A DNA stretch of 64,000 bases, taken from Thermogemmatispora aurantia. GTDB lineage: Bacteria > Chloroflexota > Ktedonobacteria > Ktedonobacterales > Ktedonobacteraceae. The stretch covers positions 915,319 to 979,318 of the forward strand of contig NZ_BKZV01000001.1 in assembly GCF_008974285.1 (NCBI RefSeq), in the 5' to 3' direction. The notes beneath the pieces are model-generated. The model saw nothing but the letters and a program-made list of their open reading frames with translations, did not search any database and was not told the origin of the DNA. Shown piece by piece: positions 58,122 to 61,069 of the stretch; position 1 is the first letter of the stretch, and the number at the start of each line of letters is the position of its first letter. Position numbers and translations under genes: made by a program.

Positions 58122-58988
58122 TCACTCACTCGCTTGCTCCACTCGTCCCTGCAGCATCTGCGCCAGCTCGCGCAGCACCCCCCGGATCAGTAGCACAAAG
58201 CGCGAGCTGGCGGCTGCCGCCGCTGCCAGCACCTCGCCATGATCCACCGGCTGCCCCTCGGTCCCGGTGGCGCTATTCGTAATCAGGCTCAGACCAAGGA
58301 CACGCTGCCCCATATGGCGGGCCACGATCACCTCGGGCACGGTAGACATTCCCACAGCATCGCCCCCAATCTGGCGCAGAAAGCGCAGCTCAGCCGGCGT
58401 CTCGTAGGATGGGCCACTGACCATCACATAGACTCCCTCGTGCAGGTGCAGGCTGGGAATCTCCCCGGCCACCCTCTGCACCAAGGCCCGCAGCTCCTGA
58501 TCGTAAGCCACGGTCATGGCCGGGAAGCGTACCCCAAACCGCTCATCGTTAGGACCACGCAGTGGATGCCAGCCCGCCAACCCGGGCAGATTGATGTGAT
58601 CGCGAATCAGCATGAAATCACCCGGCTGATAGGCTGGATTCAAAGCGCCTGCCGCATTGGTCACCACGAGCACCTGAGCCCCCAGACGCGCCATCACTCG
58701 CACAGGCAGCGTGACCTCCTGGGGCGTATACCCCTCATAGAGATGCTGTCGGCCCTGCATGGCTACCAGCGCCACTCCCTCCAGCTGCCCCAATATCAAG
58801 CGACCAGCATGGCCCGCTACCGTCGATGAGGGCCAATGCGGAAGCTGAGCATAAGGAATGGCAGCAGCGGCCTCTACCGTCTCGGCCAACTCGCCCAGGC
58901 CCGACCCTAGAATCAGGGCCACCTGAGGCACCAATGGAGAAAGCTGCCGGATCGCCGCCACGGCCTCCTCGACCTGGTCGTACAACAT
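58122..58988 (-). CDS. Purine nucleoside phosphorylase
   Basis: 288 residues, trimeric-type PNP of the PunA/MTAP group. LILGSGLGELAE, the phosphate-binding GHAGRL and GRQHLYEGY segments, VTNAAGALNP and SGPSYETPAELRFLR are characteristic; the catalytic Asn is in ITNSATG. It should split inosine or guanosine with phosphate. The gene starts four bases after the recombinase-like gene, so the two are cotranscribed; a similar xerD-linked purine gene arrangement is known from Bacillus. ATG 58988 has GAGG nine bases upstream. Confidence 0.92.
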   Translation of the reverse strand: MLYDQVEEAVAAIRQLSPLVPQVALILGSGLGELAETVEAAAAIPYAQLPHWPSSTVAGHAGRLILGQLEGVALVAMQGRQHLYEGYTPQEVTLPVRVMARLGAQVLVVTNAAGALNPAYQPGDFMLIRDHINLPGLAGWHPLRGPNDERFGVRFPAMTVAYDQELRALVQRVAGEIPSLHLHEGVYVMVSGPSYETPAELRFLRQIGGDAVGMSTVPEVIVARHMGQRVLGLSLITNSATGTEGQPVDHGEVLAAAAAASSRFVLLIRGVLRELAQMLQGRVEQASE

Positions 58989-58992
58989 GACA

Positions 58993-59886
58993 CTATCCTC
59001 GCTTCAATAGAGAATCATCACCCTCAGACGCTCCCCAGCGCTCCGACTGTCCCGCTCCCCTTGATAGGTGAGCATATTCCAATAACGCCTGGATACCTTG
59101 CGGCTCACTACTACGCTTGATAGCCAGAAGCATCAGCGACTGACGCAACTGGCAGGGCGTCAGCTCAGCAATACCGGCGCGCAGGGCATAGTTTCTGACC
59201 ACTAACCAGAAGCCCTGGCGAGTGAGCCTGCGGCCATGATGGTTCACGAACAGGCCAGGCTCCTCGGGATGACGGCGGGCCAGATAAGGACGCGAGCGCA
59301 ACAGATACTGCTCCAGCGCCATAATGGCCTGCGATGTCAGCGGGCACTCGCGCAAACGACCATCGCTGCGCGGATAAACCAGCGAGCCATAGAGGCGATT
59401 GAAACAGCTCACATCGAGAGCCACCAGCTCGGTGAGATGCATCCCCGTCGCATAGAGCACCTGCACCATCGCCAGATCGCGCATGCCCGTTGGTGTGAAC
59501 GGCGGAATCTGCTCCAGCAGGCACGCAAGCTGCTCAGCAGAAAGCACTGGAAAGGTGGTCCTGAGAGCACGGGGAGCTTGCACCGTCTCCAGCAGATTCC
59601 TCTCCAACAGCCCCTGGCTTTTGAGATGACGCAAAAAGGTCTTGAGCGCGGCCAACTTGCGACTGATCGTCGTAGGCTGATAGGCACGTACCTGACGCAT
59701 CTCCTCTAGATAAGCCTGCACATCCTCGCTCTCTACCTCCGACCAGTGCCGGCGTAGCCGCTTTTGCTCTAGAAACGAGGAGAACTGAGAGAGATCATTG
59801 CGATAGGCCGCCACCGTGTGGTGATTGATTCCGGCGCCCCTCTCAGCCAGAGTGGCGAGATAGGCATCGACAGCTTCTTGCAACAT
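58993..59886 (-). CDS. Xer/phage-integrase family protein with lost catalytic residues
   Basis: 297 residues. The N-terminal SAM-like domain (HTVAAYRNDLSQFSSFLEQK and TISRKLAALKTFLRHL) and the core (FPVLSAEQL, LAMVQVLYATG, ECPLTSQAI) match tyrosine recombinases. But the box I Arg is His150 (ATGMHLTELVAL), the HxLRH motif reads PCQLRQ, and no nucleophilic Tyr is found near the C-terminus. So it is probably a DNA-binding but non-recombining paralogue. ATG 59886 has AGGGGA nine bases upstream; the frame is open to 60147 without a better start. Confidence 0.7.
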   Translation of the reverse strand: MLQEAVDAYLATLAERGAGINHHTVAAYRNDLSQFSSFLEQKRLRRHWSEVESEDVQAYLEEMRQVRAYQPTTISRKLAALKTFLRHLKSQGLLERNLLETVQAPRALRTTFPVLSAEQLACLLEQIPPFTPTGMRDLAMVQVLYATGMHLTELVALDVSCFNRLYGSLVYPRSDGRLRECPLTSQAIMALEQYLLRSRPYLARRHPEEPGLFVNHHGRRLTRQGFWLVVRNYALRAGIAELTPCQLRQSLMLLAIKRSSEPQGIQALLEYAHLSRGAGQSERWGASEGDDSLLKRG

Positions 59887-60195
59887 TGCAACATATCCCC
59901 TGCCCAGAAATGAGAAAGAAGTGCACCTACCACCATCTTCTCGTCTCGTCCGTATCTGAGGGAGGAGTGGGTGGCTTGCCTTGGTGCTGGCATTATATGC
60001 CAGAGGCTGGACAGAGGCAAGAGTGGCGACAGAAGAGTACCACTGCGCCAACCCAGAACGGAATGCTATAATAGGACTATCCGCCCGGCATGCGCAGAGA
60101 CTGAGATGTGGCAGGTCGGGGCGCCAGTTGTCGCCTTCGTTCGTCACAAGCGGGCGGACGAGCGAGCGACGATGACCCCACCCCTGTTGCTATGA

Positions 60196-60232: not shown

Positions 60233-61069
60233 ATGAGCAAGTTTTCTGATATGTTGAGCCAGGCGCGGCGCGGCCAGAGCGGCGGCGCCATCGGCTTCTT
60301 CGGTGGCAAAAGCCGACCAGCGGTTAAGCCCCGTGCCGCCGCGCTGCTGATTGAGTTTCCCGCCGTGGACGCCGGCGAGGCGGAGGCCGCCATCAAAGCC
60401 GGTGCCAACGGCCTGCTCTTCCATTGGTCTGGCTCCCCCCTGGAAAGTGCTAGCCTTGCAACTCTGAAACAGCTCAGTGAGACTATTCAGAGCCAGGACG
60501 AGAACGCCGCCCTCGGCCTGCGCCTTCTCGGCAACGGGGCCAATATCGAGCGCAAGATGCTGGATTCTCTCAAAGAGCACGGAGTCCATTTCCTGATCGT
60601 GCCGCTCCAGGCCCCAGCCCGCTTATTGAGCACGCACCTGAAGGACTTCGATCTGGCAGTAACGCTACCCTGGCGCGGGAACGACCCCCTCTATCCTCTG
60701 GTGGTACGCAACCTGGGCGCCTTCGAGGGCCTCTCGGCCCTGCATCTGGATGGCCGAGAGCTACCATTAGAGCGCCTGAGCATCGAAGAGGCTCTTGGCT
60801 ACCGCGCCATCCGCGAGGCGCTGCGCCTGCCGGCCCTTCTGAGCCTGACGTCGCTCAATAGCGAGGCTGCCGCCTATGGCCTGCTGACGCTGGGCGTTCA
60901 GGCGGTGATTGTGCCGGCCAGCGAGAGCACCGCCGCGACGACGCAGCGCATTCAGGAGCTGCGCGAGTGGTTGGAGAAGGTCCATCGGCAGGAAGAAAAG
61001 GAGCTTCCTCCGCCGACCGTGCCTCAGCCGTCGCTCTCAACCTCCTTTGAGGAGGAAGAAGAACCCTAG
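60233..61069 (+). CDS. Uncharacterised protein, possible TIM-barrel-like fold
   Basis: 278 residues, soluble. The order of strands and Gly/Ala-rich turns (AAIKAGANGLLFHWSGSP, VHFLIVPLQAPA and GLLTLGVQAVIVPASES) suggests a barrel of the TIM type, but no catalytic residues were recognised. The last 40 residues are charged and disordered, ending in a run of Glu. Alpha/beta barrel enzymes of vitamin or amino-acid pathways are possible alternatives. AGAGAG lies just before ATG 60233. Confidence 0.4.
   Translation: MSKFSDMLSQARRGQSGGAIGFFGGKSRPAVKPRAAALLIEFPAVDAGEAEAAIKAGANGLLFHWSGSPLESASLATLKQLSETIQSQDENAALGLRLLGNGANIERKMLDSLKEHGVHFLIVPLQAPARLLSTHLKDFDLAVTLPWRGNDPLYPLVVRNLGAFEGLSALHLDGRELPLERLSIEEALGYRAIREALRLPALLSLTSLNSEAAAYGLLTLGVQAVIVPASESTAATTQRIQELREWLEKVHRQEEKELPPPTVPQPSLSTSFEEEEEP

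Follow-up and report, generated by a model that had tools for sequence, protein, structure and literature searches.

A XerD ortholog of Thermogemmatispora that has lost its active site and is maintained as a non-catalytic, probably DNA-binding protein

To our knowledge, XerD is regarded as an enzyme that almost every bacterium with a circular chromosome uses for DNA cutting, and its usual job is the untangling of doubled chromosomes. XerC and XerD support each other mutually as partner recombinases. In Bacillus subtilis, XerD (RipX/XerD) is a catalytically intact recombinase. For streptococci, a XerD-like protein (NF002685/PRK02436) is described, which we take to be a XerD homolog without active-site residues that is present beside an active XerS. 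Proteins of this fold can act without recombination. MrpR, the master repressor of prophage SPbeta, has a tyrosine recombinase fold that no longer recombines and instead represses by binding DNA (PMC10516654). For B. subtilis XerD, a role as SMC unloader at the terminus was identified, according to the account in PMC12322038 of the work of Karaboja et al. (2021), and as described there a Xer protein can act through DNA binding at specific sites.

This paper describes a xerD-like gene in a stretch of 64,000 nucleotides from Thermogemmatispora aurantia, which is referred to as the window. Members of the genus Thermogemmatispora are heat-loving soil bacteria. The gene is located directly upstream of a purine nucleoside phosphorylase (PNP) gene (Table 1). 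Its open reading frame starts with an ATG and codes for a protein beginning with MLQEAV; the coding part comprises positions 58996-59886, and the end given in Table 1 includes the stop codon. The PNP was matched by the NCBIfam model PRK08202 with 363 bits (cut-off 218) and also by PF01048, and for the divergent gene no match was found in Pfam or NCBIfam.

Table 1. Positions of the xerD-like gene, its parts and its neighbours in the window
Feature	Position	Strand	Basis
xerD-like gene, catalytically dead XerD ortholog, 297 aa	58993..59886	-	ORF, profile matches, alignment
Purine nucleoside phosphorylase gene (punA/PNP), apparently intact	58122..58988	-	PRK08202, PF01048
Codon of H150, which stands where the catalytic Arg I (XerD R148) was	59437..59439	-	alignment
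Codons of CQLRQ (245-249) in place of HxLRH; Arg II (R248) alone survives	59140..59154	-	
Residues 221-235 (LTRQGFWLVVRNYAL), equivalent of XerH helix alpha-K by position	59182..59226	-	helix in model
Residues 281-297, unconserved C-terminal tail; normal site of the Tyr-bearing segment and the C-terminal exchange helix	58996..59046	-	
Upstream control region, conserved in the genus	59887..60100	-	species comparison, promoter-like motif, inverted repeats
Divergent conserved gene, function unknown	60233..61069	+	constant xerD/PNP neighbour in the family

The window protein was identified as a member of the tyrosine recombinase fold by matches to PF00589 (63 bits, cut-off 27.1) and to the SAM-like N-terminal domain PF02899 (51.7 bits, above the cut-off). 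Its best NCBIfam model is that of XerD, TIGR02225, but with 174.6 bits it fails the equivalog cut-off of 329.6. NF002685 is not among its NCBIfam matches, so that the streptococcal XerD-like protein is a parallel case at most and not a family to which the window protein belongs. In an AlphaFold model (pLDDT 80 overall) both domains are confident, residues 273-297 are disordered with a pLDDT of about 30 in the tail 281-297, and the pTM of 0.54 leaves the arrangement of the two domains uncertain. The best Foldseek match of this model is XerD (1a0p), further matches being XerA, XerH and lambda Int and, at lower rank, the phage repressors MrpR/YopR and SroF. A PDB match labelled RaiA (9i5v) was set aside, since its alignment shows an ordinary intact Xer sequence.

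When numbered by alignment to E. coli XerD, five of the six catalytic residues are lost, namely Arg I, Lys, His II, His III and the nucleophilic Tyr, with Arg II as the sole survivor, and the C-terminal segment is replaced. R148 of XerD corresponds to H150, K172 to S or G depending on the species, H244 to C245 (S in one species), H270 to Y271 (H in one species) and Y279 to Q, R or P, and R247 is retained as R248. The initial annotation, made on the window sequence, had described a His in place of the catalytic Arg, a changed HxLRH motif, a missing Tyr and a fold that is kept; the alignment, the domain matches and the model bear out all four. The gene is present with the same losses in all six sequenced Thermogemmatispora species, none of which retains the complete set R-K-H-R-H/W-Y. 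A sequence error or rarity of the changes, which would have spoken against the annotation, was not found, as six independent assemblies carry the same changes. With dS values of up to 0.89 and a dN/dS of about 0.1 between them, the changes are more than chance, and a sequencing error was rejected.

Among 80 Chloroflexota orthologs at related loci in public genomes, R-H-R-H-Y is intact in 73. The seven exceptions are four from Thermogemmatispora, the ortholog of Tengunoibacter (L209), in which Tyr and His III are lost, and two with a changed His II, and the substitution H244Y was identified at locus L218. The nearest named organisms are T. tikiterensis (98% identity) and T. carboxidivorans (89%), and Thermogemmatispora forms one clade in the tree. 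The closest relatives of the window protein are the Ktedonobacterial XerD proteins encoded at the same locus before PNP, by which it is a XerD ortholog by descent and position. The Ktedonobacterial XerD has thus been passed on vertically to Thermogemmatispora, where catalysis was lost, most simply in a single event on the stem of the genus.

The likeness to MrpR/YopR and to SroF of phi3T consists in a tyrosine recombinase fold without most of the catalytic residues, a combination also found in the window protein. However, MrpR is a phage protein with less than 25% identity to recombinases which retains Lys and Tyr, whereas the window protein is orthologous to a housekeeping XerD of the chromosome, shares 40-50% identity with the intact relatives in its family and has no noted prophage context.

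All pairwise comparisons within the genus postdate the loss, and the substitutions compared were therefore accumulated after inactivation. For residues 1-270, dN/dS was 0.04-0.15 in these pairs, and for the adjacent PNP it was 0.05-0.09. A pseudogene in decay, heading for the loss that related genera have undergone, would be in line with the absence of XerD from the same locus in several of these genera, its splitting by frame changes in G028, the Tyr-less Tengunoibacter protein, H244Y at L218 and an early stop in the tail of one Thermogemmatispora species. This is very improbable and largely refuted already by the purifying dN/dS values after the loss, by reading frames that are open through residue 283 in all six species, and by the strong constraint on residues outside the active site; a relic was thus ruled out.

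In other Ktedonobacteria, erosion or clean deletion of XerD has occurred repeatedly and apparently independently (eroded at L209, L218 and L328; absent from L322-L327 and L329). Genomes without XerD at the locus are, for example, G012, G016, G017, G021 and G024-G026.

The constraint is unevenly distributed over the protein. Conserved columns were defined as positions kept in at least 90% of the intact orthologs. The dead XerD retains 16 of 19 of these columns in the core-binding domain. In the catalytic domain, 31 of 38 are retained as far as XerD residue 240, compared to just 7 of 20 in the active-site stretch 241-283. Across the six species, 2 of the 30 columns at residues 211-240 are variable, compared to 12 of 17 at the last 17 residues, 281-297. 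In XerH, helix alpha-K (residues 285-299) inserts into the major groove of DNA (PMC5241119). The equivalent of this helix, which was placed at residues 221-235 by the register of H309 and R312 in a mapping that is our own, is nearly invariant in the genus, and the drift is confined to the C-terminal tail, where the one premature stop is also located.

Lost cutting residues in a preserved protein suggest DNA binding in place of cutting. The reading that we consider somewhat more probable than all others together is that XerD was turned into a non-catalytic protein which has been maintained since the loss, most likely as a sequence-specific DNA-binding marker of a chromosome site or as a regulator. 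The ancestral XerD lost its active site together with the Tyr-bearing C-terminal segment, most simply on the Thermogemmatispora stem, and purifying selection has kept the non-catalytic protein since. The retained two-domain clamp may bind DNA sequence-specifically without cleavage, and the bound protein would act as a marker or regulator. We infer the DNA binding as well as its site and effect. DNA binding could also be weakened by the missing C-terminal helix and the changes of His II and His III, and conservation by itself would fit a protein-protein role as well. B. subtilis XerD, as presented in PMC12322038, has specific terminus sites, for which the dead XerD of Thermogemmatispora has no known counterparts. 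Of the initial annotation, which considered a structural, DNA-binding or regulatory role possible, the inactivity, the retained fold and the conservation of the changed residues are supported, with DNA binding as the most likely role.

The linkage to PNP, by contrast, explains little. The spacing of four bases between the two genes had been reported correctly for the window, and it was taken as a coupling to a metabolic gene. Of the 80 loci, 21 have PNP no more than 400 bp downstream; almost all of these are from Ktedonobacteria, and the majority encode a catalytically intact XerD. As PNP follows an intact XerD in other Ktedonobacteria as well, the linkage is older than the inactivation and PNP is not the explanation for it. 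Further, PNP and the divergent neighbour are still present in several related genera in which XerD is deleted. The gap is 4-7 bases in most Thermogemmatispora species and 9 bp in two other loci, so that short spacing is not peculiar to this genus. The likeness to XerD extends to this linkage, with one Bacillota locus having PNP 1.3 kb downstream; the gene order in B. subtilis is presumably xerD-drm-pupG.

It is hardly conceivable that the xerD frame serves as a mere translated leader for PNP, with translational coupling and an irrelevant protein. The gap of 4-7 bases and a GAGG inside the 3' end of xerD in the genus would suit this, but coupling would not hold a whole sequence of 260 residues at a dN/dS of 0.1, and in the species with the early stop, xerD ends 46 bases ahead of PNP.

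Upstream of xerD, about 175 bp differ by 2-11% between species, compared to 7-40% at codon third positions, and in most species pairs this region diverges about three to four times less than the third positions of the coding sequence. It was not detected in genera other than Thermogemmatispora. A sigma-70-like promoter, TTGCCT-17-TATAAT, is located at 60020-59992 on the minus strand, and nested inverted repeats lie over it (CTGGCAT/ATGCCAG around the -10 element and CTTGCCT/AGGCAAG). No tRNA was found upstream of xerD, and a structured leader RNA or riboswitch was rejected, with no Rfam match reaching the threshold and a folding z-score of -0.64. A promoter and inverted repeats in a region conserved in the genus alone, together with the short xerD-PNP spacing in most species, are what would be expected if the dead XerD regulated itself or its own operon with PNP by binding to this region. 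We regard this as unlikely, given that the inverted repeats are unlike Xer half-sites, that a promoter can be conserved without autoregulation and that the linkage to PNP is older than the inactivation.

The function given up by XerD appears to be still required. The two ends of the chromosome contig of T. carboxidivorans adjoin in three other species, as shown by synteny, from which a circular chromosome is concluded. Since FtsK-gamma (PF09397) is also present (85 bits, G000 C5:179305), dimer resolution should still be needed, and if it is still performed, it must fall to another enzyme. Linear replicons were reported in some Dictyobacter (PMC13289182). For Thermogemmatispora, a linear chromosome that makes XerD dispensable is unsupported, as the contig ends of T. 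carboxidivorans are adjacent in three relatives and as contig ends did not reveal any terminal inverted repeats. A classical XerD-arm dif site was not found in Thermogemmatispora, and elsewhere matches occurred at the control rate only; the canonical site is absent also from most relatives with intact XerD. In three Thermogemmatispora genomes, two full-strength DnaA-domain genes are present about 0.33 Mb apart (for example, G000 C1:1542019 and C1:1216058; G004 C1:328857 and C1:652192).

Only three tyrosine recombinase families were identified in all six genomes: the dead XerD, a degenerate Xer-like protein and one intact enzyme. A search for the intact XerC/XerD pair that might accompany an inactive protein did not reveal the classical pair in the genus, but instead this different recombinase. 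It has the set R-K-H-R-W-Y, is encoded outside the window (G000 C3:130710-131870, minus strand; L003/L132/L190), and is single-copy, 93-99% identical within the genus and patchy outside. No other intact tyrosine recombinase was found to be shared by all six genomes. In T. carboxidivorans the gene sits 2.498 Mb into a total of 5.608 Mb, where the sampled cumulative GC skew peaks. Local skew was examined in five genomes, and in each of them its sign switches no more than about 5 kb from the gene. Gene orientation may cause part of this sign change and the skew of T. tikiterensis is noisy; because of this, the recombinase near the replication terminus is presented as a candidate replacement for XerD. 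The gene is preceded by a conserved promoter and an AT-rich block. A dif-like site beside it was not convincing, being just the AT-rich block conserved with the promoter.

Tentatively, a swap of Xer proteins may be envisaged, in which a tyrosine recombinase, acquired and fixed in the genus near the terminus, resolves dimers of the circular chromosome and XerD is kept as a non-cutting DNA-binder, for example, as terminus marker or SMC unloader. The dead XerD might also be an accessory subunit that occupies an arm of a dif-like site in support of a recombinase partner that is still active, for which FtsK-gamma and the intact tyrosine recombinases of the genus, including the single-copy one at the GC-skew switch, could be adduced. 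This is improbable to about the same degree as the autoregulation, as the unconserved tail replaces the Tyr-bearing segment that reaches the neighbouring subunit in Xer tetramers, and as the classical XerD-arm search gave no dif-like site.

The second Xer-like protein is likewise encoded outside the window (G000 C1:783872-784888, plus strand; L005/L039). It was found as a single copy in nearly all relatives (29 of 31 genomes searched), with identities of 94-100% within Thermogemmatispora and of 50-59% over the whole order. In every full-length sequence aligned, Lys has replaced Arg I (GLKKEE), Gln has replaced His II (LQLLRD) and Leu has replaced His III, and the Tyr is displaced. To judge from these residues, it is probably an order-wide non-catalytic Xer.

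The kind of change is known from MrpR; its occurrence in a housekeeping XerD of a circular chromosome is, as far as found, new. No report of such a case was identified in the open-access literature searched, outside of which most subscription papers lie. With its circular chromosome, its FtsK-gamma and a XerD kept as a non-cutting protein, Thermogemmatispora offers a natural separation of XerD recombination from other proposed roles, like the marking of sites or the unloading of SMC. The recombinases that were turned into DNA-binding proteins, of which phage repressors are the best-known cases to date, would also gain a chromosomal example.
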